Shown: positions 2,678 to 17,523 of the stretch, piece after piece
Position numbering within the stretch: the first letter of the stretch is position 1
How the letters are laid out: each line of letters opens with the position of its first letter
From: a virus
Length of the DNA: 21,112 nucleotides
Virus record (IMG/VR): IMGVR_UViG_3300035698_004912
Location: 1-21,112 of that record
Reading direction: 5' to 3' (one strand)
Notes under the pieces: model-generated
What the model saw: the letters and a program-made list of their open reading frames with translations, nothing else
What the model was told of the DNA's origin: nothing
The model's database searches: none
Program-made: the position numbers and the translations under genes

Positions 2678-3607
2678 ATGAAAGAATTAAAGCCACGCGA
2701 GGACGGGGAAAACCCTAAAGACCGCGCAGCAGCCGTAAAACAAAACAACGACGAGGAGCTAACTCAATTAGAACAATCGCTCTCTGCCGAGGGTGAATCG
2801 TCGGAAGAGGAAGCGGCAACCTCTGAAACCGAGGAATCTGAAGGTGAATCACAAGATGAATCGGAGGAACCTGAAGAAGGTGAGGAGCCTGAAGCAGAAG
2901 AAACCGAGGAGTCAACTGAGGAGTCTGAAGAAACTGAGGAGTCTGAACCGGAGGAATCCGAGGAAGACGAAGTACGGCAGTTATCTTTGAGAGGTCAAAA
3001 AAGATTTCAGAACCTTGCTAACGAGAATAAACAACTAAAGGGTGAATTAGGGAAACTACAGACAACAGTTAATAGCCTACAAGGTATCGGATATAGCAAA
3101 AAGGAAGCGGAAACGATAGCCCCTGACATAGATACATCTAACAAGGAAGAAATAACTGAAGAAGATTACAGGCAGGATATAGCGAAGCAAGCTCGACATG
3201 TGGTCCAGGATGAAATAAGAAAGCGTGACCAAGTAGACCAATTTAACAAGAAACAGGAATGGTTTAAAGAAGACTTAGAAACAGTAGAGAGTAATCATCC
3301 TGAGCTAAATCCTGATTCAGATAAATACAATAAAGAAGTAGATGAGTTTATCGGTGATTATTACGAGACACTGGTAGCAAAAGACCCTAATGTACGCTTA
3401 AGAGATGTGGCTAAAAAGGTTATAAACCTAAACAACGCAACCTTAAAAGAAAAGCAGAAAGAAAAAGTATCCACTCTTGCCAAGCAAGCATCATCGCAAG
3501 CTATCCAGACAGGCACACAAGAAGACACAAGCAGTGATGTGAGCAATAAGATACAAGGGGCTGAAACAATACAAGAACTAGAAAGACTGGAATCGGAACT
3601 TACATAA
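2678..3607 (+). CDS. Putative capsid scaffolding protein, hyperacidic
   Basis: This encodes 309 residues immediately upstream of the major capsid gene, the usual place of the scaffold that organises procapsid assembly and is then removed. Residues about 39-99 are almost entirely Glu, Ser, Thr and Pro with many EESEE-type repeats. Residues about 104-140 (QKRFQNLANENKQLKGELGK onward) are a likely coiled coil, as in many scaffolds. The rest is helical, highly charged and without Cys. A helical, charged C-terminal part (EKQKEKVSTLAKQASSQAIQ) may contact the capsid shell. No protease motif is visible. The start follows AATT with only a weak ribosome site. An alternative is a DNA-mimic or other acidic virion protein, but position and coiled coil favour scaffold. 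Confidence 0.75.
   Translation: MKELKPREDGENPKDRAAAVKQNNDEELTQLEQSLSAEGESSEEEAATSETEESEGESQDESEEPEEGEEPEAEETEESTEESEETEESEPEESEEDEVRQLSLRGQKRFQNLANENKQLKGELGKLQTTVNSLQGIGYSKKEAETIAPDIDTSNKEEITEEDYRQDIAKQARHVVQDEIRKRDQVDQFNKKQEWFKEDLETVESNHPELNPDSDKYNKEVDEFIGDYYETLVAKDPNVRLRDVAKKVINLNNATLKEKQKEKVSTLAKQASSQAIQTGTQEDTSSDVSNKIQGAETIQELERLESELT
2792..2974 (+). repeat. Low-complexity Glu/Ser repeat tract inside the scaffold gene
   Basis: Imperfect units such as GAGGAGTCTGAA are repeated along this stretch and encode residues 39-99 as runs of EES, EET and EPEE. The tract was probably produced by slippage or unequal exchange of short units. It also creates a spurious basic reading frame in the next frame. 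Confidence 0.8.
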
Positions 3608-3668: not shown

Positions 3669-4583
3669 ATGGCAATTACAAATAGAACGACAGTAGCAGG
3701 TCCAGTCGGGCAGTATTACGATAAACGTTTCCTAATGCGGGCTGAGGAGAACTTTGTTTGGATGGACTTGGGACAGAAGGGAAGTGTACCACCTCATGCC
3801 GGTCAAACAGTTGTATGGCATCGTTTTACGAATCCTACAGCTAAGACCAGTGCGTTGACGGAGGGTAGTGACCCAACCCCAACAGGCCTATCTTCAACAT
3901 TAGTATCCGCTACACTAGCTCAGTATGGTAATTACGAGCGTATCTCCGATATGCTTGAACTAACAGCTGTATCTAGCGTAGTCAAGGAAGCAATTGACCT
4001 CTTGGCTTATGAAGCGGCTTCTAGTTTTGATGACATCATCAAGGCAGTAGTTATCGACCACGGACAAGCTCAATATGCTGAAACTGCAACTGCAAGAAAT
4101 AGCTTGCAGGCTACAGACACTTACGGTGTAGGTGAAATTCGAGAGGCGTTGCGTACATTGCGAACATTAGGGGCTAAACCTCATACTGGCACTGATTATG
4201 TGGCAGTATGTCACCCCGATGTCCTTTATGACCTTCAAGGGGAAGACTCATGGATTAACGCTCATATCTATACAGAGAAAGGTATCAACGCTGTGTATAA
4301 CGGCGAGGAAGGCCGCATGTATGGTGTGCGTCACGTGATGACCCAGAACGCTGAAGTGCTGACTAACTCCGGTTCTGCTGGAACGGAAGTCTATCAAACG
4401 CAGATTATAGGTAAGGGATACTTCGGTGTCTCCCACCTGCAAAATCTGAAAACGTATGTAGACTCACCATCAAGGAACTTGGTGTTACGCCATGCTTCGG
4501 ATGTAGGGTGGATTGCATCGTTTGCTGCAGAGGTCTTGAACGACAGTTTTGCTGTTCGTGTGGAAAGCGGAGCGACTCAATAG
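3669..4583 (+). CDS. Major capsid protein, N4-gp56 family-like
   Basis: This encodes 304 residues. The order of segments resembles the N4-gp56 family of HK97-fold capsid proteins. An N-terminal YYDKRFLMRAEENFVW is followed by a Gly/Pro-containing segment with HAGQTVVWHRF (about residues 43-53) and LTEGSDPTPTGLS. Next comes a YGNYERISDMLELTAV segment leading into a long helix (about residues 90-125). The C-terminal half is beta-rich with HPDVLYDLQ and VRHVMTQNAEV. It follows the scaffold gene and has the strongest ribosome site in the window, as expected for the most abundant virion protein. A hairpin terminator follows 33 bases after the stop (TAG). Length is typical for the shorter members of the family and below that of phage N4 itself. 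Confidence 0.88.
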   Translation: MAITNRTTVAGPVGQYYDKRFLMRAEENFVWMDLGQKGSVPPHAGQTVVWHRFTNPTAKTSALTEGSDPTPTGLSSTLVSATLAQYGNYERISDMLELTAVSSVVKEAIDLLAYEAASSFDDIIKAVVIDHGQAQYAETATARNSLQATDTYGVGEIREALRTLRTLGAKPHTGTDYVAVCHPDVLYDLQGEDSWINAHIYTEKGINAVYNGEEGRMYGVRHVMTQNAEVLTNSGSAGTEVYQTQIIGKGYFGVSHLQNLKTYVDSPSRNLVLRHASDVGWIASFAAEVLNDSFAVRVESGATQ

Positions 4584-4615
4584 AGCCAATAATTAGGCTT
4601 TATACGAGATGATTG

Positions 4616-4639
4616 AAGAGGTCGAAAGGCCTCTTTTTT
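4616..4639 (+). terminator. Intrinsic terminator after the capsid gene
   Basis: An 8-base-pair stem (4616-4623 with 4628-4635, one T-G wobble) closes on a GAAA tetraloop, and the T-run 4634-4639 follows. This is a textbook rho-independent terminator and ends the packaging/head transcript. Confidence 0.9.
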
Positions 4640-4692: not shown

Positions 4693-5232
4693 ATGGAGCA
4701 AAAAACATGTATACATTGTCAGAATATATACGAGAGGGGACATGGCGCATGGAAGCGTTGGGCTAAAAGAAAGTATTGTAGTCGCAAGTGTAATGATGTA
4801 GCGAGAAGGCGCATTGTACATTTACCACCAAAAGAAAAAGAATGTTTAGTTTGCGGTAAAACATACAGTAAGAGGTATGAGGAGGCGTGGCTTAAATGGA
4901 AGGGAAGAAAGTTTTGTAGCTCTAAATGCTCTTATGTCGGTAGAGTAAACAAGGCCCCTAGAACAGCCTTTAAGAAAGGCAATACACCTCATAACTTTAA
5001 GAAAAGAGGGTATGGATATGATGCTGTACATAGCTGGATAAGAAGACACTATAAAAAGAAACGTATTTGTGAGGACTGCGGGGAGGAGCGCAAAACACAA
5101 TGGGCTAATATCAGCGGTAAATACAAGCGGGATAGAAGTGATTTTAAGGAGCTGTGTTATAGCTGTCATACTAAGTTTGACCATGAAGACCCTAAGAGGC
5201 CGAGATATAAAGGCGCTGTGGATAACCGCTAG
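4693..5232 (+). CDS. Free-standing HNH endonuclease with two N-terminal zinc fingers
   Basis: This encodes 179 residues. Two tandem finger-like units come first: C6-x2-C9 with C29-x3-C33, and C51-x2-C54 with C75-x3-C79. Each has a W-K-W or W-A-K-R segment before a YCS/FCS-x-x-C pair. The C-terminal domain is a phage-type HNH nuclease: H113 in YDAVHSWI, structural zinc pairs C126/C129 and C155/C158, N139 in QWANIS and H159. Such enzymes nick or cut DNA and often act as homing elements in phage late regions. The gene lies alone between the capsid terminator and the next promoter, which fits an insertion. No good Shine-Dalgarno sequence is seen, suggesting low expression. Its last codons contain one copy of a DnaA-box repeat. 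A second, related gene is at 16418. Confidence 0.88.
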   Translation: MEQKTCIHCQNIYERGHGAWKRWAKRKYCSRKCNDVARRRIVHLPPKEKECLVCGKTYSKRYEEAWLKWKGRKFCSSKCSYVGRVNKAPRTAFKKGNTPHNFKKRGYGYDAVHSWIRRHYKKKRICEDCGEERKTQWANISGKYKRDRSDFKELCYSCHTKFDHEDPKRPRYKGAVDNR

Positions 5233-5262
5233 TGACAAATGTCTTAATTAGCTGTGGATAAC
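5215..5262 (+). repeat. Direct repeat carrying two exact DnaA boxes
   Basis: GCTGTGGATAAC occurs at 5215-5226 and again at 5251-5262, same orientation, 36 bases apart. Each copy contains TGTGGATAA (5217-5225 and 5253-5261), the exact complement of the DnaA box TTATCCACA. The first copy encodes the end of the HNH protein. The second lies just upstream of the extended -10 at 5268-5276, where a -35 contact would be. Binding of host DnaA is an inference. Confidence 0.6.
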
Positions 5263-5267
5263 TTTTG

Positions 5268-5276
5268 TGTTATAAT
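5268..5276 (+). promoter_or_regulatory. Extended -10 promoter of the GroES and sugar-gene operon
   Basis: TGT-TATAAT is an exact extended -10 (TGn plus consensus hexamer, 5271-5276). The -35 region (TTAGCT, 5248-5253) is weak, as allowed for extended -10 promoters. Transcription would begin near 5283, giving a leader of about 20 bases before ATG 5303 with no Shine-Dalgarno sequence. The downstream DnaA-box copy overlaps the region an RNA polymerase would contact. Confidence 0.6.
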
Positions 5277-5302: not shown

Positions 5303-5608
5303 ATGGTCACACCAAATAAAGGACGGATAATAGTAGAGCTCCTTAAACAAGAAGATGGGCAGATAATCCTACCTACCAGAGAGAATATAAAAGCAGGAGA
5401 GAACGCACAGATAGGTAAAATAGTTCATGCAGGTGATAGCCAATTCAAGAAAGGACAAGTAGTCATGTTTGCCGAGTATTCAATGGTAGGCTTCTATAAA
5501 GACATTAAGTCATTGGCGGAAGGTAAAGTCTCTATGAGCCAAGTTAACAAACCTGAGAATATGTACTACGTAGTAGCTGGATGTGATATAATGGCAAGTG
5601 ATGGGTGA
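5303..5608 (+). CDS. GroES-like co-chaperonin (Cpn10)
   Basis: The product has 101 residues from ATG 5303; a TTG two codons upstream is a less likely start. The pattern follows Cpn10. The first strand is GRIIVELLKQEDGQIILP (residues 7-24), then comes a polar stretch RENIKAGENA (26-35) where the mobile loop lies, followed by IGKIVHAGDSQFKKGQVVMF (37-56) and AEYS, matching the family's G-x-V-x-x-x-G, K-x-G-D-x-V-x-F pattern. GroES caps GroEL and closes the folding chamber. Several phages encode their own version (T4 gp31 is the known example) to fold the capsid protein. No GroEL is present here, so it would work with the host chaperonin. The gene leads the operon that includes the sugar genes. 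The C-terminal part diverges from bacterial GroES. Confidence 0.75.
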   Translation: MVTPNKGRIIVELLKQEDGQIILPTRENIKAGENAQIGKIVHAGDSQFKKGQVVMFAEYSMVGFYKDIKSLAEGKVSMSQVNKPENMYYVVAGCDIMASDG

Positions 5609-5714
5609 TTTCGACGTACTAAACATAACTACCACTAAAGTCTTACAAGATGACCCTGAGCCAATTCCAGAAGAATCTGAAGAAAGTGAATCCGAACCTA
5701 CGGATAAGGAGTAG
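5601..5714 (+). CDS. Very small acidic hypothetical protein
   Basis: ATG 5601 overlaps the GroES stop by 8 bases and the frame ends at TAG 5712-5714, giving 37 residues. The second half is strongly acidic (DDPEPIPEESEESESEPTDKE region, residues 17-37). It also overlaps the next frame by 65 bases. It bridges a gap that would otherwise separate two coupled genes, which is the main argument for it. The composition could equally be a by-product of the overlapping frame. Function unknown. Confidence 0.35.
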   Translation: MGDFDVLNITTTKVLQDDPEPIPEESEESESEPTDKE

Positions 5715-5943
5715 AGGTTATGGAGATATAGTCGGAGTATTCGACGGAGATAGGTTTTTAATTCGCATGTCTAAAGGAGAATTCAATTTAAACGGTTACA
5801 GGAAGAAGTTTATCAGAGGCAATCTGGACGTGGTATATGGCAACATACAAAAGCGTGGACGTAAGACAGTTACCAGAATGTTACAACGCAAAGGGTATGT
5901 TAACAGCATAAAAGATTATCGAATGTTATTATGGGGATATTGA
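5650..5943 (+). CDS. Hypothetical basic protein in the GroES operon
   Basis: This encodes 97 residues, rich in Lys and Arg. It opens with a helix (SQFQKNLKKVNPNLRIR). A beta-like stretch follows (YGDIVGVFDGDRFLIRMSKG, about residues 24-43), then NLNGYRKKF, RKTVTRMLQRKGYV and a C-terminal WGY. The middle reads like a small mixed alpha/beta fold with a basic surface, possibly nucleic-acid binding, but no named motif is visible. The start overlaps the 37-residue frame by 65 bases, and the end overlaps the first glycosyltransferase gene by 13 bases, so it is probably translationally coupled. I do not recognise the family. Confidence 0.65.
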   Translation: MTLSQFQKNLKKVNPNLRIRSRGYGDIVGVFDGDRFLIRMSKGEFNLNGYRKKFIRGNLDVVYGNIQKRGRKTVTRMLQRKGYVNSIKDYRMLLWGY

Positions 5944-7349
5944 TTACAATTGTCACCGCCACATACAAACGCCCAGCTAAGCTCCTACGAGCTATTGAAA
6001 GCGTAGTCGCTCAAACCTATCAAGACTGGGAATTGATTGTTGTTAGCGACGGTATAAGCAAAGAGAATAAAAAAGTAGTCAAAAGTTTCAAAGACAAACG
6101 TATCAAGTACGTGGAGATAGAACACAGCGGGTCAGATGCTAAACCTAAGAATGAAGCAATACGCCAAGCTAAAGGAAAATATATTGCATACTTGGATGAC
6201 GATAACGAGTATCTACCTAATTTCCTTGAGACGTTATTTACTGAAATAGAGCTAGGTGGGGATGATGTGGTTTATGGGGACGCAAGGATATTTAAGTCTT
6301 CTAAAGACAAAGAGGGCAGTCAGGCAATCACTATGGACTTTGACGCTCAATTCCTACTCAATCGTTCCTTCATAGACAACAACAACGTCTTACATAAGAA
6401 AGAATGTGTTGAATATATAGGTGGCTGGAACGAGGATATACCACGATTTAAGGATTGGAACCTGTTTGTAAGAATGGCTAAGGCTGGGTTTAATTTTAGA
6501 CATATCCCTATCTTCATGACCAAGTATTATATTACTAAAGGAAATTCAGCTGATAAGTTTCCGGTTAAGTCATGGGTAGATAGGGAGACAGGAATAACAA
6601 TGTTCGCAGCTACTTGGTTTAACCCATCATCATGTTATATCTGGGGCAAGTGGTTAGGAACACAGGAACCTAAGCCTACAGTAGGAGCATTCACGTTAGT
6701 AAAAGACCGCCTTGACTACACTAAGAAGATGTACGAGAGCATGGAAAGTGCTGGGTATCCTTTTGACTGGTATGTATACGACAACGGCAGTAAAGATGAT
6801 TACAGTTGGATAAAAGCCAAGTGGTATCACAAGAGCAAAAAGAACATGGGCATATCCCACGCTTCCAACGCTTGCATAGATGCTATGGGCGACAAATATG
6901 ACATAATTATGAAGGTAGATAACGATGTACTCTTCTTAACTAAAGGCTGGCTAAAGAGCTTTATAGATATGTGGAAGCGCAACCACAAGCTTTATATCGG
7001 GCCTTACCCCGAAGGATTAGTTGATTCACCTGGCGGACCTTGGCGAGTAGGCGTAGCTACTATCGGTAATGAATACGTTGAAGTAACCCAACATATACCA
7101 GGTATGTGTACGTTCGTAGATGCTAAGGCTTATAAGGATTTCAGATGGAAGGATAAGTTTTTACATGGCAATCAGGATGTAGAGTTCAGCGACCATGCCA
7201 GGAAAGAAGGTTATATGCCCTGTATCTTACCAAGACACAGGGTACAGCACACAAATACCAGTGCGGGCCAGAAGGAAGATTATCCCGAATACTTTAAGTT
7301 AAGGAAATATGAGCGAACCCACGAGGCTCCTACTAGGACATCGGAGTAA
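5931..7349 (+). CDS. Bifunctional glycosyltransferase, two GT-A domains in tandem
   Basis: This encodes 472 residues. Residues 1 to about 225 form a GT2-type domain: the start ITIVTATYKRPAKLLRAIES and VVSDG are the nucleotide-binding strands, and DDD at 89-91 in YLDDDNEY is the metal/nucleotide motif. Residues about 245-472 repeat the fold: VGAFTLVKDRLDYTKKMYES, WYVYDNGSKDD, NMGISHASNACIDA, and KVDND at 328-332 as the second D-x-D. The region HGNQDVEFSDHARKEGY (about 427-443) resembles the acceptor-side motif of this superfamily. Each domain would move a sugar from a nucleotide-sugar to an acceptor, so the protein may add two residues in succession. It is the first of seven sugar-related genes, overlapping its neighbours at both ends. 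Donor and acceptor cannot be read from sequence. Confidence 0.85.
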   Translation: MGILITIVTATYKRPAKLLRAIESVVAQTYQDWELIVVSDGISKENKKVVKSFKDKRIKYVEIEHSGSDAKPKNEAIRQAKGKYIAYLDDDNEYLPNFLETLFTEIELGGDDVVYGDARIFKSSKDKEGSQAITMDFDAQFLLNRSFIDNNNVLHKKECVEYIGGWNEDIPRFKDWNLFVRMAKAGFNFRHIPIFMTKYYITKGNSADKFPVKSWVDRETGITMFAATWFNPSSCYIWGKWLGTQEPKPTVGAFTLVKDRLDYTKKMYESMESAGYPFDWYVYDNGSKDDYSWIKAKWYHKSKKNMGISHASNACIDAMGDKYDIIMKVDNDVLFLTKGWLKSFIDMWKRNHKLYIGPYPEGLVDSPGGPWRVGVATIGNEYVEVTQHIPGMCTFVDAKAYKDFRWKDKFLHGNQDVEFSDHARKEGYMPCILPRHRVQHTNTSAGQKEDYPEYFKLRKYERTHEAPTRTSE

Positions 7350-7788
7350 GAAGAAGGGCTGGACTACAGTAGATATTACCGGAGTGCCTGATATGGTATG
7401 GGATTTGAATAAACCATTAGAGTTACCGGATGAGAGTGTGGAAGCAATCGCTGGTATGCACGTTTTTGAACACCTAAAGTCTGACATAGAAGCTGTGGTT
7501 AAGAGCTGGTATAGAGTTTTAAAACCAGAAGGGGAAGTAGTTATTGAAGTCCCAGATATTGAGGAGATAGCTAGGGAGTTTATTGTCGCAGATGAAGAAC
7601 GCCGCCATTTATTACTAGGGTACATTTACGGCAATCAAGAGGACGAACACAACATCCATTACTGGGGCTGGACTAAAACATCTATTGTTAAGTTATTCGA
7701 TGACATGGGGTTTAAAGCTATGGCTATGGAGGGGAAGGATTACCACACAGAGGAAGCACCTTGTTTACGACTAGAAGCAATCAAATGA
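7309..7788 (+). CDS. Methyltransferase-like protein with degenerate SAM motif
   Basis: This encodes 159 residues, resembling the small class I SAM-dependent methyltransferases found in sugar clusters. GWTTVDI, MVWDLNKPLELPDESVEAI, the HVFEHL motif (residues 51-56) and YRVLKPEGEVVIEVPDI (68-84) are all in family order. However, the usual glycine-rich motif I (LGCG type) is here LLLGHRSKKKGW (7-18), lacking the normal G-x-G. A helix found upstream of motif I in longer members is also missing. It may bind SAM differently, act only with a partner, or be inactive. A good ribosome site (AAGGAA) precedes ATG 7309 inside the preceding gene (41-base overlap). It is coupled to the next methyltransferase by ATGA, so the two may form a pair. 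Confidence 0.7.
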   Translation: MSEPTRLLLGHRSKKKGWTTVDITGVPDMVWDLNKPLELPDESVEAIAGMHVFEHLKSDIEAVVKSWYRVLKPEGEVVIEVPDIEEIAREFIVADEERRHLLLGYIYGNQEDEHNIHYWGWTKTSIVKLFDDMGFKAMAMEGKDYHTEEAPCLRLEAIK

Positions 7789-8381
7789 AAAGAATACAAG
7801 ACAATATAAATAGTAAAAAGTATTGGAATAGTATTTATTCTAGTCGGGAAGACAGGCATGAGCATGCAGACAAACATAAATTGATGGATATGGTCTATTC
7901 AATAGAAGAAGGTAAGAGCGTGCTAGATGTGGGATGTGGTACTGGACACCTATTACGTGAAATAAAGAGACACAGGCCAACCTGTGAGCTCACAGGGGTG
8001 GATTACAGCGACGTTGTTATCAATAGACTGAAGCAAACAACCCCAAACATAGAATGGCTGACTGAAATGCCTAAAGGAAAGTATGACTATGTTGTCACAA
8101 TGGAAACTTTAGAACACATTGAAGACCCTGAGAACTTCTTAAAAACTCTAGCAGATGTAACTAAATGGAGGTTAATAATAACCACTCCATATAAGAACAG
8201 AGTACCGTCATGTGAACACACTTGGAGTTTTGATGGAGATGATATTAAAAAGATATTAGAGGAGTGGTTCAAGAAAGTCTGGGTAATGCCAGTAGGTTCA
8301 GGAGGAGCTGTTAGTGGAAATGGAAAGATATTACAACACGAGGGGAATTGGGATATTTTATACATAAAAGCAGAGAGATGA
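7785..8381 (+). CDS. Class I SAM-dependent methyltransferase
   Basis: This encodes 198 residues from ATG 7785, which overlaps the previous stop as ATGA; a TTG eight codons upstream is less likely. Motif I is intact: SVLDVGCGTGHLL at residues 45-57. It is followed by LTGVDYSDVVINRLKQ with the acidic residue that binds the SAM ribose, then YDYVVTMETLEHIEDPENFL and the LIITTPYKNR strand. This is the Methyltransf_11/UbiG-like arrangement. In sugar clusters such enzymes methylate a hydroxyl, amino or carboxyl group of a sugar, capping or decorating a chain. The substrate is not evident. It overlaps the next gene by ATGA, so it belongs to the same translational chain. Confidence 0.85.
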   Translation: MKRIQDNINSKKYWNSIYSSREDRHEHADKHKLMDMVYSIEEGKSVLDVGCGTGHLLREIKRHRPTCELTGVDYSDVVINRLKQTTPNIEWLTEMPKGKYDYVVTMETLEHIEDPENFLKTLADVTKWRLIITTPYKNRVPSCEHTWSFDGDDIKKILEEWFKKVWVMPVGSGGAVSGNGKILQHEGNWDILYIKAER

Positions 8382-9130
8382 AAATTACTATAACCGGACC
8401 AGCGGGTTTCATAGGCAAGAACTTAGTGCCTAAATTAAAAGGGCATGAAGTGTTATTAGATAACACTGACGTAATAACAGGAACATTGGAACCAACAGAT
8501 TTAATAATCCATTTGGCGGCCTTAAACAAGACAGGAGAAAGTATTGAGCAGCCATATAGATACTTCGAAAACAATGTGTTGGGAACAGTAAGAATGTTGG
8601 AAGAAGCTAGAAGACTAAATGCTAAGTTTATGTACCTAGCTACTATCAAGCAGAACGAAAATAACCCTTACGGAGTATCCAAACTAACAGCGACTAAATG
8701 GATAGAATGTTATCGGGACACTTACGGTATAGACACGATTATAAACATGGTGGGTAATGTTTATGGACCATATGGTGACCACTTATTCGTCAATCAATTC
8801 ATACAAAAGACCTTAAAGAAAGAACCTGTCGTGGTGTTTGGGGTAGGCAAAGAAATGCGTAGTATTCTTTACATTGATGACCTAACAGACTTTATAACGC
8901 ATCAGATAAACCACTTTGATTGGTATAAGAACGAAGTAACTCCGATAAACGGAGGAGAAGAAAACATAGTAAGCATAAGAGAGATAGTTGATTACCTTGA
9001 ACCTGAAATAGTAAACTATAAACCAGCAATAAAAGGACAAAAGAAAATAAACATAAACACAGACACCGCTATCAAAAACCCTACTCACTGGAAAGAAGGA
9101 ATAGAGAAAACAATCAAGCATTATGGTTAG
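8378..9130 (+). CDS. NAD-dependent epimerase/dehydratase (extended SDR)
   Basis: This encodes 250 residues from ATG 8378 (ATGA overlap with the methyltransferase; the upstream TTG is rejected). The Rossmann motif G7-x2-G10-x2-G13 (TGPAGFIG), the HLAA strand at 45-48, the catalytic Thr region YLATI (86-90) and Y98-x3-K102 in PYGVSK mark an active extended short-chain dehydrogenase. VYGPYG, VFGVGKEMRSILYIDDL and INGGEE are the usual substrate-side segments. Relatives convert nucleotide sugars (4-epimerases, 4,6-dehydratases, reductases). At 250 residues it is shorter than the usual 310-340, mainly because the Rossmann part after strand 1 is trimmed. It probably supplies a special sugar donor to the transferases next to it. 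The exact reaction cannot be told. Confidence 0.85.
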   Translation: MKITITGPAGFIGKNLVPKLKGHEVLLDNTDVITGTLEPTDLIIHLAALNKTGESIEQPYRYFENNVLGTVRMLEEARRLNAKFMYLATIKQNENNPYGVSKLTATKWIECYRDTYGIDTIINMVGNVYGPYGDHLFVNQFIQKTLKKEPVVVFGVGKEMRSILYIDDLTDFITHQINHFDWYKNEVTPINGGEENIVSIREIVDYLEPEIVNYKPAIKGQKKININTDTAIKNPTHWKEGIEKTIKHYG

Positions 9131-9785
9131 CATAATCACGCCAACCTACAAGCAGATTGATAAGTTGGAAATAATAAAACCCATTATAGAAAAATGGAAC
9201 GTAGAATGGACGCTGGCTATAGACGGCTGTAAGCAGACTAAAAAGTGGGCAGAGGATAACAAGATAGATTATGTCTATCAGGATAGGTTTGGGAGAAGGT
9301 ATAACGAGATATGCAACATAGCGGCTGAACAAGTGGAAGGTGATTATATTTTATTCATTAACGGAGACAGCATACCGAAAAGAAATTATTTAGAGAGCAT
9401 AACTGAGGAAGCAGACCCAAATAGGATAATATGCGGTCTAAGAATAAACGTAGACGAGAAGATGAAGATAGTTAGTTCTGATCACCGCCTAAAAATGGTA
9501 AAGATAAAAGAAAGTAGGCCCTTTAAAGTAGAAAACTGGGAAGCACAAACATCAAACGGGATGCTTGTGCATAAAGACTTATGGGAAAAGCTGAGGGGAT
9601 TTGATACAATATACAAAGGATATGGAGTAGTAGACCAAGACTTTTGTATGAGGGCTCACTATGAGGGAGTGGAGAATTGGTGGGCACCTCGAGCAGTCTT
9701 ATACCATATGCATCAAAAGAGGCTTAACAACACTAAAGGTAATTATGAAATCTATGAAGAACGCAAAGCTGACTATAGCGTATGA
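9123..9785 (+). CDS. GT2-type glycosyltransferase
   Basis: This encodes 220 residues. The start MVSIITPTYKQIDKLEIIKP and LAIDG are the GT-A nucleotide-binding strands, and RYNEICNIAAEQVEGDYILF leads to the metal motif. Here that motif is N80-G81-D82 (INGDS), so the first Asp of D-x-D is replaced by Asn. GYGVVDQDFCMRAH (about 168-181) resembles the GxGxxDxD acceptor/catalytic motif of galactosyltransferase-type GT-A proteins, and YHMHQKR near the end supplies a His that often ligates the metal. It overlaps the epimerase gene by 8 bases and the deacetylase-like gene by 41. Likely transfers one hexose or amino-sugar; donor unknown. Confidence 0.8.
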   Translation: MVSIITPTYKQIDKLEIIKPIIEKWNVEWTLAIDGCKQTKKWAEDNKIDYVYQDRFGRRYNEICNIAAEQVEGDYILFINGDSIPKRNYLESITEEADPNRIICGLRINVDEKMKIVSSDHRLKMVKIKESRPFKVENWEAQTSNGMLVHKDLWEKLRGFDTIYKGYGVVDQDFCMRAHYEGVENWWAPRAVLYHMHQKRLNNTKGNYEIYEERKADYSV

Positions 9786-10383
9786 AGCGGATGACCTTAG
9801 TTTGGTCAATCCTGCTTTTACGGAAGCCTTTGATATTATAGAGGGGCTAAGAGAACGATACCCAACATTTAAGATGACGTTCTTCACTGTGCCGTGGGAA
9901 GTAAGATACAAAAAAAAAGGCCACTTAACTAACCCTGAACTAACAGGACGTCTTAACGTAATGAAAGAAGCCCACAACCGAGGACTAGCCCAGTATGCAT
10001 TACACGGACTGACGCATTTACCAATGGAGTTTAGTGAGTTGAATTATGAAGATGCCAAGAAACGTATACTAGCGGCGGAGAAGATAATCATGGAGGCAGA
10101 GCTAACTTTTGAAAAGATATTTAAAGCTCCTAACTGGGCGTTATCCAAGGAAGCTGAAAAAGCTATTAAAGACATGGGGTACAAAGTAGTCAAAGACTTT
10201 TACTATCAATGGAATCTAGCTGACGATGCTCCTAAGCCACAAGAATACAAAGGTAAAACCATTATTGCTCATGGGCACGTGCAAGACGGAGATGGCTGTA
10301 ATAACGGAATGAATGAGACAGTATACAAGTTAAGAGAGCTACCCGAAGGAACAGAGTTTAAGTTTATTTCAGAAGTTTTATGA
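9745..10383 (+). CDS. Polysaccharide-deacetylase-like protein (NodB/DUF2334-like)
   Basis: I place the start at ATG 9745, preceded by AAAGG five bases upstream, giving 212 residues. The frame is open further back to 9661, but that part is out-of-frame sequence of the transferase gene. Visible motifs of carbohydrate-esterase family 4 and relatives are: D16-D17 in IAYEADDLS (catalytic and metal Asp), TFFTVPW (45-51), H87-x3-H91 in HGLTH (metal ligands), a helix LAAEKIIMEAE, and FKAPNW in the place of the R-x-P-x-G/W motif. IIAHGHVQD near the end could supply the second catalytic His. Family members remove N-acetyl groups from amino-sugars in polymers. There is no signal peptide, so it would act in the cytoplasm, perhaps on a precursor. 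Confidence 0.7.
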   Translation: MKSMKNAKLTIAYEADDLSLVNPAFTEAFDIIEGLRERYPTFKMTFFTVPWEVRYKKKGHLTNPELTGRLNVMKEAHNRGLAQYALHGLTHLPMEFSELNYEDAKKRILAAEKIIMEAELTFEKIFKAPNWALSKEAEKAIKDMGYKVVKDFYYQWNLADDAPKPQEYKGKTIIAHGHVQDGDGCNNGMNETVYKLRELPEGTEFKFISEVL

Positions 10384-11435
10384 AAGATATAAAAGCCTTA
10401 GCATTTACGAACGGCACAGCGAGTCACGTTTGGAGATTCGATGGCATAGCTCGTCGAATGAATGAACGCACTAAACACCAGATGTTCATAGCTAATAATT
10501 CTTCATGGAATGGAGATATAGTTGGAGCTAATTTAGTAATACTGGAACTAACTACTGGCCATCACATAGTAGACACCTGTCACAACATGGGAGCCAAGGT
10601 TATCTTTGAAGCTGATGATGCGGCGATAGACACATACGGACGAGAACGTAAGAACCTACAAAAGATAGGTCCAGAGTTTCGCAGTAACATGATACAAACT
10701 ATTAGGAAGTGTGATGCTGTGACGGTAACCAATGAAGCGTTAGCAAAAAATTATGCACGCTTTACTGATAAGCCTATCTATGTCTTGCCAATATACATGG
10801 ACTATCAATACTATGGAGACGCAATAAAGATTAAACTACCCGAAAGAAACACTGATGAAATCCGCATAGGCTGGTATGGGTCGAAGGGACACTTTGAAGA
10901 TTTAAGAATGATTATCCCCGCCTTAAAAAATGTTTTGTCTAAACACAAAAACGTAAAGTTTATTTATGTCGGTTATGGGCATGGGTCCAAAGATTTAGGG
11001 CAAATGTCAGTTTGGGGCGAAGAAGAACTGTTTAACGAATTACCACGCAATCAAAGAGAGTTTTCAGAAGGAGTAGAAGAAGCTTACTGGCCGTTCAGAC
11101 ACAAGCTGTTAGATTTTGATATAGGGATTGCTCCATTAATAGATGATGAGTTTAATTTGGCCAAGGTAAACACAAAATGGTTAGAGTATTCAGCACTAGA
11201 AACTCCAGCAGTCGTCTCCCCAACTGTCTATGGAGATTCAGTAAAGCATGGGAAGACAGGACTTATAGCGAAGGATGTTAACCAGTGGGAAGACTGCTTA
11301 ACAAAACTCATAGAAGACAAGGAGCTGAGAGATAAGATGGGTAAGGCTGCCGCTAAGGAAGTAAGTGAGAACTGGAATATAGAGGACTACTGGGAGAAAT
11401 GGACTGATGTTTACCTAAAGACTGTGGTAAAATAA
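10380..11435 (+). CDS. GT-B glycosyltransferase (GT4-like)
   Basis: This encodes 351 residues, starting in an ATGA overlap with the deacetylase-like gene. The N-terminal half has the acceptor-side Rossmann features (VILELTTGHHIVDTC, IFEADDA, CDAVTVTNEALAKNYARFT). The C-terminal half has the donor-side features: IRIGWYGSKGHFEDL (about 161-175), NVKFIYVGYG, FDIGIAPLIDDEFNLAK and KWLEYSALETPAVVSPTVYG (about 273-292). The last of these holds the Glu that contacts the nucleotide-sugar ribose in GT4 enzymes. GKTGLIAKD and a C-terminal helix complete the fold. It closes the sugar cassette. The presence of GT-A and GT-B enzymes together suggests assembly of an oligosaccharide rather than addition of one sugar. 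Confidence 0.83.
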   Translation: MKDIKALAFTNGTASHVWRFDGIARRMNERTKHQMFIANNSSWNGDIVGANLVILELTTGHHIVDTCHNMGAKVIFEADDAAIDTYGRERKNLQKIGPEFRSNMIQTIRKCDAVTVTNEALAKNYARFTDKPIYVLPIYMDYQYYGDAIKIKLPERNTDEIRIGWYGSKGHFEDLRMIIPALKNVLSKHKNVKFIYVGYGHGSKDLGQMSVWGEEELFNELPRNQREFSEGVEEAYWPFRHKLLDFDIGIAPLIDDEFNLAKVNTKWLEYSALETPAVVSPTVYGDSVKHGKTGLIAKDVNQWEDCLTKLIEDKELRDKMGKAAAKEVSENWNIEDYWEKWTDVYLKTVVK

Positions 11436-11439
11436 ACTT

Positions 11440-11745
11440 ATGAAGCCATATAAAGTAAAGTTTAAAACTAATGGTGGTTGTAGGGTGCTTGTACAGCCTA
11501 GTTACACTGGAATGGCATGTAGATTAGAGTCAGTATTTTATGGTTCAGAGAGTCCATCATCACACTTAAGATTATACGATAAAGACGGAGACGTAGTTTG
11601 TCATCCAATACCCGGACAGTTAGAAGGAAATAATCTGGTAATTCTAGAAAATCCTTTAACAGTACAGTTGCCTTTTGAGTATGAAGATGATGATGGTGAG
11701 AATGTTGTGGTGTTGTACGGAACATTGCATAAAGTTAAGTATTAG
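11440..11745 (+). CDS. Small beta-rich hypothetical protein
   Basis: This encodes 101 residues that I do not recognise. Alternating hydrophobic and polar residues (VKFKTNGGCRVLVQPSY, HLRLYDKDGDVVCHPIPG, NLVILENPLTVQLPFEYED, NVVVLYGTLHKVKY) suggest six to eight beta strands, so a small beta-sandwich or barrel. Three cysteines are spaced without a metal-binding pattern. It follows the sugar cassette by four bases but resembles no sugar enzyme. A decoration, head-fibre or completion protein is possible from its place before the internal virion genes, but this is a guess. No Shine-Dalgarno sequence is seen. Confidence 0.65.
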   Translation: MKPYKVKFKTNGGCRVLVQPSYTGMACRLESVFYGSESPSSHLRLYDKDGDVVCHPIPGQLEGNNLVILENPLTVQLPFEYEDDDGENVVVLYGTLHKVKY

Positions 11746-11783: not shown

Positions 11784-11811
11784 CCCACCTCCGAGAGGCG
11801 TGGGCTTTTTT
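11784..11811 (+). terminator. Intrinsic terminator between sugar cassette and ejection genes
   Basis: CCCACCTC (11784-11791) pairs with GAGG (11795-11798) and TGGG (11801-11804), leaving a CGA loop and a two-base CG bulge. One C and six T (11806-11811) follow. It ends transcription from the sugar operon, and also that of the promoter at 11725-11752 unless it is read through. Confidence 0.8.
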
Positions 11812-13249: not shown

Positions 13250-16200
13250 ATGCCCTTCTTAAGAAACATAAGAGACCTCTTTGCAAAACCTAAACCAGTT
13301 ATAGATGTAGTAAGTACAGACCCACGGGTTTTACAGAGTGCTAGAGCTAGACGAACCCTGCCAGATACGCAGAGGTTAATTAGGCGTGCTAAAGTAGAGA
13401 GAGCAACAATCGTTCCGAAGGCTTTTGTACGAGCTCAAACAGCAGTGCCAAGATTCGTGGCACGAGGCTCAGCTAGAGTAGGTGGAACAATAGGAGCTAC
13501 TCTAGCTGGTAAAAAGACTATCCCTATAAGGCGAGACATACCAAAAGTCGCACAAAGATTACAAAGACAGTTTTTTGGTGAAGACCCGCTAGAGAGCATC
13601 CCTACTCAAATAGACAGATTCCCAGGTAGAGCTAAGGAGCTTGGTATACCTGAAAGTGCAGGAAGGAAATTAGCTGCGCCTTTAGTTGTTGGGTCTATAG
13701 CAGCAGAGTTCACAGGGTTAGGTAAAAGCAAGAAGTTGATTAAGCCGACAGTAAAAGGAGTAGAGAAAGGTATCCCGTTTATAAGAAACTTACTTAGCGA
13801 GTTAGAGCCGGTAGAACATTTATTGGCGAGTATATCTAAAAAGACTAGGGCAGAAAATTCTTTATATATAAGAGTAAGAGACGCAGGCAGTGACTTATTA
13901 GCGTCAATGAACGGCAGAAAAGAATTGAGTGATGATGTCATAAGAAACGCTAGAGAATTGGTGGAACTTGGTAACAAGAAACTAGAGAGGTTAAAAAAGC
14001 TATCTAACTTTACTACTAAAAAACTAGACCCAATGATACTGGATGACGACATCACCTCACAAGCCCGTAAGTTCATCTACAGACCTAGTAAAGGCTTAGA
14101 CAGCCAAAGAGGAGCTATAGACTTTAACGCTCCGATAGAACCTATAAAAGGATTACAAGCAGCGAAACAACAAGTGACGCAAGGCCTACGTAAATTAAAA
14201 GGTCAAGACGTATCATCGGTTAAATTAACTAGTAAGGGCTTACAGACGGCGAGAGATACCGCAAAAGGAACATTAACAAAACGGCTGCCGCAACTTTTAG
14301 CAGAACGTAGGGCAACTTTCGAGGCTCTGGGAACTCCCCTAACAGCAAACGGTAGAGCAAAGGCGTCAATATCAAAAAAGTTAGCAACATCAGCGGGACA
14401 GCGACTACGAGATTCAAAGTCATTAGATAATGTTATAGGTGATGTAAGTGCTAAGGAAAAAATAAATATAATTGATTTGTTCCGTACTCCTACTAAGATA
14501 CTAAACAAAATAGGTCTAGGCAAGGAAGGTAAGGCTCTCGAACAATCGTGGGACGCATACAAAGCAGAGCTACCAAGCCACATAGATAAGATAGGAGAGT
14601 GGTTAAAGAGACTAGGTGGTAAAGATGCTAGTGTTAGAGTGTTCCGTAGCTTAGACGGGCAACAAATAGCACTCACTAAGGTTGAGAAACAAGTGGCAGG
14701 TGAGATAAGCGAGTACCTATCGGTATGGGCAGACAGACTAGGTCTACCTAAGGACAAGCGCATTGCTAGTTACATTACTCATTTATTTGATGATGCTTTT
14801 AATGCAAAAGAGTTTGATCCAGAGATAGCAAGATTAATAACAGATAAAGTAGCAGGTTCTGTTTATGACCCATTCTTACAGAAACGTCTAGGAGCTAGAG
14901 GTTACAAAGAAGACTTAGGATTAGCACTACAGGCATATGCTAAGAGAGGCGTACGTAAAGCGAACATGGACCCTGCTCTAGCAATACTTAAAAAGAGTTC
15001 CGGTAAACTAGAGAACAGCCAACTAAAATATGTGGAGAGGTTATCTTCACGTATCAATATGCGTCCAACAGAAATAGACAGTTGGATAGACAACACAGCT
15101 AGGTCTTTAGGAGTTAAATCCCAACGTCCAACCATGAGGGCAAGTCATTTCGTTCGCATGCTAGGTTTTAGAGGTGCGTTAGGAGCTAATGTAGGTTCAG
15201 CGGTACGAAACTTAACACAGGTTAACAACACCTTCGCCAAGTTAGGAACTAAATACACAACTAGAGGGTACATGGATATAGTACGGAAAATGGCGGCTAG
15301 GGACACTGACGAGCTAGTAAGAGCAGGTGTGTTAGACGACCAGTTTGTAGACCATTCTGTATCGGCATTAAAGAAAAGACTTGAAACAGTGGATAAAGGT
15401 TTATTCTTCTTGTTTGATAGAGCTGAGAAAATAAACAGAGGTTCAGCTTACTACGGTGGAAAAGCTAAAGCGTTAGCGGCTGGAAAAACAGAGGCAGAAG
15501 CAATAAGAGAAGGAATCGACTTAGCTAGAACGACACAGTTTAAGTTCGGGGCAGTAGACACTCCCCCTATTTTACAAGCAGACATTGCTAAGGCGTTTTT
15601 ACAGTTTCAATCTTTTAATGTTAAGCAGTTGGAATTTCTAGGAGACATGGTAGCTAACAAAGAATTGGCTGGCTTGATGAGATATACACTAGGAGCGGCT
15701 ATTATAACATCGTCATTTGGGAAACTAATAGGTGTAGAACCTGCAGACTGGATACCGTATTATGATGACCTATTGGAAGGCAGGACTAGAATAGGAAAAA
15801 CCCCAGCGATAAATGTAGCGACTACCGCATTTAAAGCTGCAACAGGCGCACCAGATAAGTTTGGACAACCAACAGAGACAGGAGCGTTAGGTCAGGCTCT
15901 TATCCCTGTAATTCCAGGGGGAGTACAAGCTAAGAAAACCATACAAGGGTTAAGAGCAGTTAGTGCCGGAGCATCAAAGTCTAAGTCGGGCAGGGTTAGG
16001 TTCCCAGTACCACAGAACGTACCAGAGCTATTAAGAAAAGCAGTCTTCGGACAATATTCTGGGAAAGAGGCTAAACTTTACTTTGACGAAGAACGACAAC
16101 CACTAGGAGAAAAAGACTCGCTGTATTACAAGACATTAGTTAAAGAAGGCTATGACCCAGATAAAGTCTTTAATGCTTTATATAAAAGACGAATAGAGCG

Positions 16201-16351
16201 AACTCTTAAAACTGACAAGACAGCACTAGTAAAAAAGTTAAAACTATTAACGATTGATGAGAATAAGACTAAAGATAAGAAAAGAAAAGAAGCTATAAAG
16301 TTAATCAAGGAATACGACAATAAAATACTAAAGAAACTTAAGCAATTATAA
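13250..16351 (+). CDS. Large basic protein, putative ejected virion protein
   Basis: This encodes 1033 residues and starts directly after the previous stop (TAAATG), with no ribosome site of its own, so it is coupled. The N-terminal 100 residues are Arg/Lys-rich. A mildly hydrophobic Gly/Ala stretch lies near residues 135-155. The body is helical. The region about 725-870 (REGIDLARTTQFKFG, then AKAFLQFQSFNVKQLEF and MRYTLGAAIITSSFGKLIGV) resembles the C-terminal segment of very large phage proteins that are packed in the head and injected (polyvalent or inner-core type). It contains one plausible membrane-associating helix. The last 50 residues are extremely Lys-rich. No transglycosylase, protease or polymerase motif could be recognised. 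I infer delivery with the DNA from size, position and composition only. Confidence 0.55.
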   Translation: MPFLRNIRDLFAKPKPVIDVVSTDPRVLQSARARRTLPDTQRLIRRAKVERATIVPKAFVRAQTAVPRFVARGSARVGGTIGATLAGKKTIPIRRDIPKVAQRLQRQFFGEDPLESIPTQIDRFPGRAKELGIPESAGRKLAAPLVVGSIAAEFTGLGKSKKLIKPTVKGVEKGIPFIRNLLSELEPVEHLLASISKKTRAENSLYIRVRDAGSDLLASMNGRKELSDDVIRNARELVELGNKKLERLKKLSNFTTKKLDPMILDDDITSQARKFIYRPSKGLDSQRGAIDFNAPIEPIKGLQAAKQQVTQGLRKLKGQDVSSVKLTSKGLQTARDTAKGTLTKRLPQLLAERRATFEALGTPLTANGRAKASISKKLATSAGQRLRDSKSLDNVIGDVSAKEKINIIDLFRTPTKILNKIGLGKEGKALEQSWDAYKAELPSHIDKIGEWLKRLGGKDASVRVFRSLDGQQIALTKVEKQVAGEISEYLSVWADRLGLPKDKRIASYITHLFDDAFNAKEFDPEIARLITDKVAGSVYDPFLQKRLGARGYKEDLGLALQAYAKRGVRKANMDPALAILKKSSGKLENSQLKYVERLSSRINMRPTEIDSWIDNTARSLGVKSQRPTMRASHFVRMLGFRGALGANVGSAVRNLTQVNNTFAKLGTKYTTRGYMDIVRKMAARDTDELVRAGVLDDQFVDHSVSALKKRLETVDKGLFFLFDRAEKINRGSAYYGGKAKALAAGKTEAEAIREGIDLARTTQFKFGAVDTPPILQADIAKAFLQFQSFNVKQLEFLGDMVANKELAGLMRYTLGAAIITSSFGKLIGVEPADWIPYYDDLLEGRTRIGKTPAINVATTAFKAATGAPDKFGQPTETGALGQALIPVIPGGVQAKKTIQGLRAVSAGASKSKSGRVRFPVPQNVPELLRKAVFGQYSGKEAKLYFDEERQPLGEKDSLYYKTLVKEGYDPDKVFNALYKRRIERTLKTDKTALVKKLKLLTIDENKTKDKKRKEAIKLIKEYDNKILKKLKQL

Positions 16352-16417: not shown

Positions 16418-16825
16418 ATGAACAAACTACCAGACAACAAAATATGTGAGACCTGTGGTAATAAATACTTTCGGTCTATGCGTATTGTAGATGGGAAAGA
16501 ATATCCCACATCTATAACGCAATGGAGGAAGAGAGCTTATTGCTCAGCTGGGTGCATCCCACATACAGGGGAAAATTATGGGCGTGGTAAAGACCACTGG
16601 AACTGGAAAGGTAAAAATGTTGGCTACAGGGGTATCCACCACTGGGTAGTAAAAAACCTAGGACGGGCTACTAAATGCACAGAATGCCCAGCCACAGTTA
16701 AGACCACGAGAATCCACTGGGCTAATATGAACCATTTGTACAGAAGAGTTTTAAAAGATTATAAATCGCTATGTGCTGCTTGCCACGGAGTACATGATAA
16801 GGCGTTAAGGGCACAAAGGAGCTAA
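16418..16825 (+). CDS. Free-standing HNH endonuclease, second copy of the family
   Basis: This encodes 135 residues. One N-terminal zinc finger (C10-x2-C13 with C42-x3-C46, including WRKRAYCSAGC) is followed by a linker with HWNWKGK (60-66), a segment often seen in phage HNH proteins. The HNH domain follows: H74 or H75 in RGIHHWV, C87/C90, N103 in HWANMN, C119/C122 and H123. The architecture matches the HNH gene at 4693 but with one finger instead of two. The two are clearly related but too diverged to be a recent duplication. It lies between the ejection and adaptor genes with its own promoter. Its stop codon overlaps the spacer of the adaptor's ribosome site (AAAGGAG 16815-16821), so it is fitted closely to that gene. 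Probably a homing-type nuclease. Confidence 0.88.
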   Translation: MNKLPDNKICETCGNKYFRSMRIVDGKEYPTSITQWRKRAYCSAGCIPHTGENYGRGKDHWNWKGKNVGYRGIHHWVVKNLGRATKCTECPATVKTTRIHWANMNHLYRRVLKDYKSLCAACHGVHDKALRAQRS

Positions 16826-16827
16826 TT

Positions 16828-17523
16828 ATGGATTTAGACGAATTTCAAACAAACTTACACTATCTCTACGAGGGAAACATAGATACACCTTCATCAAGCG
16901 ATGACGAATACACTCATCGAACTACATTATTAAAAATGTCAATCAACGCTTGGGATAATGATTATGGCATTAAGTGGAATGAACTTTGGGTAACACTGGC
17001 AGACGCTTCAGACGGTGATACGACAGTAAACGCCAGTGACCTAGATTATGACATGCCAACAGACTTCAGACACCTAGGGGGATTTGTCAGAACTTACACT
17101 AACTCAACCTCACAAACATTCTGGGAGATACTAGACCAAGCACAAGCAGACTTATTCAGAAATGAAAGTACAGTAGGAGCTTATGTCACAGGTAATAAGA
17201 AAGGAGGCTTTGACCTTCACTTCCTCAAACAACCTACAACCAGCGACACGATAGACTATCCTTACTACAAAGAACCATACGAACCTTCCAGTGGAGCTAA
17301 TGTGATAGAAATGTCAGACCCTTGGTTTGCAGTTTATTTTGCACTAGCTAAGTTACATGAGATAGACGGCGATGGAGACAGAGCCCAAATGGCACAAGCC
17401 ACGGCACAACAAAAATTAAGCAACATGAGAGTTAATAACGAACTGAGACCTGGGTATAATCCTAACCGAGTACAAGACACAGACTTCGTAGTAGGTACTC
17501 CAGGCTTCGGTGCAACAGGATAA
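16828..17523 (+). CDS. Head-tail adaptor (tail tubular A / gp4-like)
   Basis: This encodes 231 residues with a strong ribosome site (AAAGGAG, six bases before ATG). The pattern is that of podoviral adaptor proteins, which bind under the portal ring: an N-terminal helix region, then YDMPTDFRHLGGF (about 72-84) and a Gly-containing beta segment. YPYYKEPYEP follows, and a long C-terminal helix rich in Ala and Gln comes after SDPWFAVYFALAKLHEIDGD (about 164-183). This mix of DFR and a helix with WFAVYFAL resembles T7 gp11/P22 gp4-type proteins. It overlaps the tail nozzle gene by one base (TAATG), as expected for an adaptor-nozzle pair. The assignment is by pattern and order. Confidence 0.7.
   Translation: MDLDEFQTNLHYLYEGNIDTPSSSDDEYTHRTTLLKMSINAWDNDYGIKWNELWVTLADASDGDTTVNASDLDYDMPTDFRHLGGFVRTYTNSTSQTFWEILDQAQADLFRNESTVGAYVTGNKKGGFDLHFLKQPTTSDTIDYPYYKEPYEPSSGANVIEMSDPWFAVYFALAKLHEIDGDGDRAQMAQATAQQKLSNMRVNNELRPGYNPNRVQDTDFVVGTPGFGATG

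Follow-up and report, generated by a model that had tools for sequence, protein, structure and literature searches.

The virus record IMGVR_UViG_3300035698_004912 of IMG/VR (positions 1 to 21,112; all 21,112 bases are referred to here as the window) holds the structural half of a tailed phage, from portal-like to fibre-like genes, and is probably a fragment of a genome. Seven sugar genes (5931–11435) sit in it between the gene for the major capsid protein (MCP) and that for a PLxRFG-type protein of 1033 amino acids (aa). They belong to a capsid-linked glycan module that is real and old in its phage lineage, and that probably glycosylates a virion protein in the cytoplasm, with the MCP as the first candidate and other virion acceptors included. 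The module has a frame of three core genes, which encode a double GT-A glycosyltransferase (GT2dbl), a CE4-type deacetylase and a GT-B glycosyltransferase, and a middle that varies between relatives. Phage virion glycosylation is already known, while a capsid-linked module with a fixed frame and a variable middle looks undescribed.

Linkage and co-inheritance with the capsid gene

No match to the window came up in a megablast search of 50,697 phage genomes, and none to its portal protein in a tblastn search of phages. Single-sequence scans with the MCP and with the GT-B found one relative each, and alignments were therefore used as queries. The MCP alignment retrieved 80 loci, many with the same gene order. 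To avoid the circularity of an MCP-based search, the viral collection was also scanned with GT2dbl alone, which returned 80 viral loci including the window, equivalent to 61 clusters at 90% identity. The MCP gene lies 50–1348 bp upstream of GT2dbl (at most 1.5 kb) in all 60 clusters with enough sequence. Similarly, the deacetylase and GT-B follow GT2dbl in all 29 whose downstream sequence extends for 8 kb or more, and the core gene order is maintained in 41 of 42 loci. IMG/VR contigs are chosen partly by hallmark genes, which favours contigs that bear an MCP, although adjacency is not forced thereby. The original prediction had proposed searching related phages for the same gene order, and the arrangement indeed recurs across the 61 clusters, more than expected by chance.

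Cassette carriers form a single clade (support 100/100) on a tree of 78 MCP sequences, in which 21 outgroup MCPs lack the cassette. Its presence and absence amount to one change on this tree, compared with about 19 in shuffles. The complete genome of podovirus ctQWt234 falls inside the cassette clade on a long branch; it was counted as a carrier on account of its single GT2. Distances between MCPs correlate with those between each of the core enzymes (Mantel r 0.83–0.87; null maxima no higher than 0.33). Conservation is stronger in GT2dbl than in the MCP (median 44% vs 36%). The idea of a host-derived island absent from related phages, which the original prediction named as one possible refutation, is rejected: the module is a fixed feature of a single MCP clade and has been inherited together with the MCP.

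Comparison of the GT-B with phages gave matches of about 24%, mostly to large E. coli phages, which are uninformative on function. A 74.8-kb record, IMGVR_UViG_3300028274_000006 (loci L019/L212 and L174), contains two different cassette phages in succession. Its first part matches the 37.6-kb contig of locus L018, and the record represents either tandem genomes or a joined assembly. A different virus (L003, 9668–16122) has a related GT-B, two GT2-like genes, and one radical SAM-like gene among its structural genes, and sugar genes within virion modules thus extend beyond the cassette lineage.

Gene map, active sites and variable middle

Gene families were assigned by Pfam and PHROG profile matches, and the window is laid out as follows.

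396–2141: portal-like gene
2678–3607: scaffold-like gene
3669–4583, + strand: MCP, 304 aa (phrog_1357, 4e-48)
4615–4637, + strand: intrinsic terminator directly 3' of the MCP (9-bp stem, -12.4 kcal/mol, T tail)
4693–5232, + strand: HNH endonuclease (phrog_1271, 1e-12)
5268–5276, + strand: extended -10 promoter element (TGTTATAAT; consensus match only), preceding the GroES-like gene
5303–5608, + strand: GroES-like co-chaperonin gene (PF00166, Cpn10, 2e-4, above cut-off)
5650–5943, + strand: conserved, subclade-specific 97-aa protein with no assigned function, between the GroES-like gene and GT2dbl
5931–7349, + strand: GT2dbl, core gene 1 (PF00535, 3e-30, two stretches)
7309–7788, + strand: short methyltransferase with a degenerate Gly motif, variable middle (PF08241, Methyltransf_11, 2e-7, second half of the profile only)
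7785–8381, + strand: S-adenosylmethionine (SAM) methyltransferase, semi-conserved (PF13489, Methyltransf_23, 5e-20)
8378–9130, + strand: SDR nucleotide-sugar epimerase/4,6-dehydratase-like, variable middle (PF01370, Epimerase, 3e-32; TIGR01181, 4e-23, below its cut-off)
9123–9785, + strand: single-domain GT2 glycosyltransferase, variable middle (PF00535, 1e-5)
about 9745–10383, + strand: CE4/DUF2334 polysaccharide-deacetylase-like, core gene 2 (PF10096, DUF2334, 1e-7; PF01522, Polysacc_deac_1, 6e-6)
10380–11435, + strand: GT-B (GT4-like) glycosyltransferase, core gene 3 (phrog_7162, 5e-29; PF13692, Glyco_trans_1_4, 1e-7)
11440–11745, + strand: small protein with no assigned function at the end of the unit (one homologue, in L010, 41% identity)
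11784–11811, + strand: intrinsic terminator at the end of the unit (hairpin of -11.7 kcal/mol followed by T6)
13250–16351: 1033-aa protein with a PLxRFG-type domain (match below the family's cut-off)
16418–16825: second HNH-type gene in the window, by profile
16828–17523: SU10-type adaptor (PF24175)
17523–19478: virion protein; fibre-like genes are also present in the window

All seven sugar genes are thus on the + strand where the original prediction had placed them, and by profile all match sugar-enzyme or methyltransferase families. Their described position behind a GroES-like gene and the capsid gene holds as to order, with the qualifications that the 97-aa gene precedes GT2dbl and that the HNH gene splits the MCP from the GroES-like gene. 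This HNH gene is missing at that position from most relatives and is a probable mobile insertion outside the core. The GroES-like gene is kept between the MCP and GT2dbl in the window's subclade, across which homologues of the 97-aa protein also occupy the same place. Other relatives have a longer, 190-aa GroES-like form (PF00166, 6e-16 in L044), and GroEL-like genes occur in or near the cassette in L042 (10237–11778; PF00118, 1e-53), L049, and L087 (5640–7208). Together with the GroES-like genes found between the MCP and GT2dbl in many other phages, the GroEL-like genes suggest that the coat protein is associated with a chaperonin of the phage itself.

The AlphaFold2 (AF2) model of GT2dbl (predicted local distance difference test, pLDDT, 89) consists of two GT-A domains, and that of the deacetylase (pLDDT 93) matches CE4 deacetylases. 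Asp89, Asp91, Asp175, Asp330, Asn331, Asp332, Asp416, and His440 of GT2dbl are conserved in 49 of 49 sequences, and both DxD-type motifs are intact at the key Asp in all of them. The deacetylase has a NodB-like/CE4 fold with a metal triad (D45/H115/H119) conserved in 42–43 of 43. Its profile gave no match to PDB sequences, and the fold was identified by structure prediction instead. With fold and triad intact in the predicted enzyme, the partly deacetylated glycan originally proposed is plausible. Further down the list, at rank 27 (E 1e-4), the deacetylase model weakly resembles the capsid turret protein of Haloferax tailed virus 1 in fold.

The SDR carries GxxGxxG and YxxxK motifs, recognised by eye. 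Alignment confirms that the first methyltransferase is degenerate; because its Gly motif reads LLLGHR where relatives have LHLGCG, it may be inactive. There is no clear membrane segment in any cassette enzyme of the window, and KD19 exceeds 1.7 in just 5 of 309 cassette open reading frames (ORFs). The cassette enzymes are accordingly predicted to be soluble.

The interval between GT2dbl and the deacetylase ranges from none to 6.3 kb. In 42 loci taken together, this middle comprises 104 ORFs with a length of 100 aa or more, which group into 37 clusters (28 singletons). The most frequent are methyltransferases, whose largest cluster has 28 members, followed by GT2 (16) and SDR (11); single cases include a sulfotransferase, RGP-like, nitroreductase, DegT aminotransferases, FdtA-like, UDP-galactopyranose mutase (GLF), UDP-sugar dehydrogenase, GT-D, and radical SAM. 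A fixed frame with a variable middle is the pattern of a surface-glycan locus. HNH-type genes, recognised by profile in the window (4693–5232 and 16418–16825) and by eye in other phages, are variously placed around or inside the cassette (elsewhere L083 1384–1920, L173 18209–18745, L182 7175–7654, L217 2283–2969, and L042 9201–9620) and are possible movers of the variable middle.

Gene fusions also occur. By alignment, GT2dbl is fused to a methyltransferase in L012 (compared directly), L034/L035, L041, and L067, with lengths of 629–679 aa in L012, L034, and L041. A bacterial contig, CALKMS010000038.1 (L088), encodes GT2dbl, methyltransferase, and deacetylase as one 866-aa protein, whose deacetylase part is 26% identical to the phage deacetylase (2e-17); beside it lies a GT4-like gene weakly similar to the phage GT-B. 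These fusions speak for a pathway shared by the enzymes.

Consecutive cassette genes had been described as overlapping in ATGA fashion. This is the case at three of the six junctions (7785, 8378, and 10380), and the other three have overlaps of 41, 8, and about 41 nt. Given these three ATGA junctions and three longer overlaps, translational coupling is likely throughout the cassette. Expression together with the structural genes, as originally suggested, is less well supported. Because a strong terminator (4615–4637) and a second one (11784–11811) flank the cassette and an extended -10 element (5268–5276) precedes the GroES-like gene, the cassette is probably its own transcription unit inside the structural region. 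A terminator comparable to that at 4615–4637 follows the MCP in 32 of 61 relatives. Just 5' of the GroES-like gene are two DnaA-box-like copies of TGTGGATAAC (5217–5226 and 5253–5262, 36 bp apart; 0.03 expected), the first inside the end of the HNH gene.

Proposed virion glycosylation and its alternatives

In the mechanism proposed here, GT2dbl with its two catalytic GT-A domains, assisted by the single GT2 and the GT-B, would build a short oligosaccharide on a virion protein in the host cytoplasm. The donors would be host nucleoside diphosphate (NDP)-sugars, partly converted by phage enzymes such as the SDR in the window, and the glycan would be trimmed by the methyltransferases and the CE4-type deacetylase. 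Linkage and core would come from the conserved frame, and the choice of outer sugars would lie with the exchangeable middle, letting the virion coat diversify in the manner of flagellin or O-antigen glycans. As the invariant neighbour, the MCP is the prime candidate acceptor. The lineage combines glycosyltransferases that have intact active sites with a constant association with virion genes, as phage virion-protein glycosylation would require. Virion glycosylation is thus the best supported of the roles originally suggested; the acceptor, the glycan with its sugars and order of steps, and the benefit to the phage are what we infer from genes alone.

Several points weigh against virion glycosylation. 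These viruses are uncultured, and linkage in the genome is no proof that a virion protein is the target. Terminators stand on both sides of the cassette. The best full-length folds for GT2dbl are K4 chondroitin polymerase (K4CP) and P. multocida heparosan synthase 2 (PmHS2), which likewise have two GT-A domains in one soluble chain; identity is 12–20%, and the global template modelling (TM) score reaches only about 0.4–0.46 because the domains are placed differently. TarP, a single-domain fold neighbour of GT2dbl, acts on wall teichoic acid, and profile matches of the GT-B include TarM. The MCP is richer in Ser in the cassette clade (8.4% vs 5.0%), a hint only, as the enrichment concerns one clade and is confounded by phylogeny.

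A sub-case of virion glycosylation, somewhat unlikely in our estimate, is that the acceptor is a tail, adaptor, or fibre protein, or a small decoration protein such as that encoded at 11440–11745. The cassette sits between head and tail genes, small genes come after the GT-B in many relatives, and mycobacteriophage glycans are located on capsid and tail-tube proteins (PMC12619734). However, the genes 3' of the GT-B vary by lineage, while the MCP is constant, and the 11440–11745 protein is rejected as a universal acceptor, being present in one relative only. Small proteins with a Ser/Thr/Pro-rich front lie near the cassette end in L044 (15321–15827), L018 (15996–16607), L181 (15565–16023), and others. 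The two tested had no Pfam match, and these are possible virion proteins or glycan acceptors.

Alternatively, the enzymes could remodel the host envelope during infection, modifying lipopolysaccharide (LPS), teichoic acid, or capsule precursors at the inner membrane face and so blocking superinfection or releasing progeny from receptors. Domain 1 of GT2dbl does resemble envelope-polysaccharide transferases (SpsA, TarP, and WrtF are among its single-domain fold matches), PHROG matches include GtrB-like O-antigen conversion, and several middle genes are of O-antigen type. The gene content of 22 near-complete relatives, chosen by length (34–45 kb, against a 40-kb complete relative) and not by CheckV, points the other way. 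None of the 22 has a flippase (PF01943), GtrA (PF04138), or an initiating polyprenyl-phosphate transferase (PF02397, Bac_transf). A GtrABC-type conversion system is thus not recognisable, the window enzymes also having no clear membrane segment, and neither is a Wzx/Wzy-type pathway, although host flippases and initiating transferases could serve. A tyrosine integrase occurs in 3 of 22 and a serine recombinase in 1 of 22, which disfavours lysogenic serotype conversion. With predicted soluble enzymes, an MCP linkage without exception, and close co-inheritance with the MCP, the late remodelling of the host surface put forward in the original prediction is less likely.

Glycosylation of phage DNA, a base hypermodification that would counter restriction, appears very improbable. 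DNA-modifying phage glycosyltransferases are known (PMC12838424) and soluble enzymes would suit this role, but the cassette lies beside the MCP and not beside replication genes, its nearest cellular kin are in flagellin and polysaccharide contexts, and a hydroxymethylase of the thymidylate synthase type (PF00303) is found in 0 of 22 near-complete relatives, other base-modification routes not having been searched. Least probable of all is a horizontally moving sugar island whose passenger genes have no fixed phage function. The variable middle, the HNH genes near or inside the cassette, and the slightly low GC content in the window (0.399 vs 0.42–0.43) are in keeping with such an island. The frame genes, however, occur in a single clade, are co-inherited with the MCP, keep their order, and have intact active sites; for them the idea is refuted, and it applies only to single middle genes.

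Known counterparts and significance

A precedent for glycosylation of a virion protein is found in mycobacteriophages. According to PMC11256854 and PMC12619734, after Freeman 2023, phage-encoded glycosyltransferases of Che8 and Rita place glycans on capsid and tail-tube proteins. The transferases of the F1 phage Maravista lie near the 3' end of its genome (PMC11256854), in contrast to the position behind the MCP found here. The present cassette also differs in its frame, with a double GT-A enzyme and a deacetylase, and in its exchangeable middle.

Chlorovirus PBCV-1, a eukaryotic virus, bears an N-glycan on a jelly-roll MCP. Its enzymes are virus-encoded and soluble, and A064R, which completes the capsid glycan, joins two glycosyltransferase domains and a methyltransferase domain in 638 aa (PMC9614988), resembling the GT2dbl–methyltransferase fusions (629–679 aa). 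This likeness is in domain make-up, with no sequence homology seen in PDB searches.

Flagellin glycosylation islands offer a cellular parallel. In them, glycosyltransferase, methyltransferase, and sugar genes adjoin the gene of a surface protein that self-assembles, their content is highly variable and includes methyltransferases and aminotransferases (PMC4875605), and the modification is cytoplasmic (PMC4065374). Among the matches listed from 84,980 genomes, few span both domains of GT2dbl. The best three loci are L088, one in Nitrospira that has a flagellin gene and a 2155-aa glycosyltransferase/methyltransferase protein, and one in Acidobacteria that has two flagellin-type ORFs. Two of these three best-matching cellular relatives therefore sit in flagellin loci. 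Flagellin-like genes occur in 5 of 80 genome loci (a raw count, without a background rate), and no viral locus contains a flagellin-like ORF. The phage cassette thus has the layout of a flagellin island with the MCP in the place of flagellin; unlike in those islands, the acceptor would be a phage protein, and the frame is a fixed set of three enzymes including a deacetylase.

Podovirus ctQWt234 (MW202801, Manatee Spring) has radical SAM, glycosyltransferase, PhyH, methyltransferase, NodB-like, and GT-B genes behind its MCP. Its single GT2 replaces GT2dbl, its middle is different, and the record gives the set no function. No description of a deacetylase/double-glycosyltransferase module behind a phage MCP was found in the open-access literature, which agrees with the initial impression that this set in this position is not a described system.

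A bolder proposal can be offered tentatively. The lineage-wide, antigen-locus-like operon, with its three-enzyme frame and hypervariable tailoring middle, might coat every capsid with a strain-specific sugar. It would then be the prokaryotic equivalent of the way in which giant algal viruses glycosylate their capsids autonomously, possibly with folding of the modified coat protein dependent on phage GroES/GroEL.

If virion glycosylation is indeed the role of the cassette, capsid glycosylation would be no oddity confined to a few mycobacteriophages but an old and stable property of a large phage lineage, and the cassette would offer a compact, testable group of soluble phage enzymes that glycosylate proteins. 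Diversity maintained like that of bacterial surface antigens would imply selection on the outer face of the particle, for which grazers, lectins or enzymes released by hosts, mucus, animal immunity, and surface adsorption are candidate agents. Sugar-coated virions would become predictable from genome sequence. This would also account for a class of sugar genes from viral metagenomes, often labelled as host-surface or auxiliary metabolic genes.

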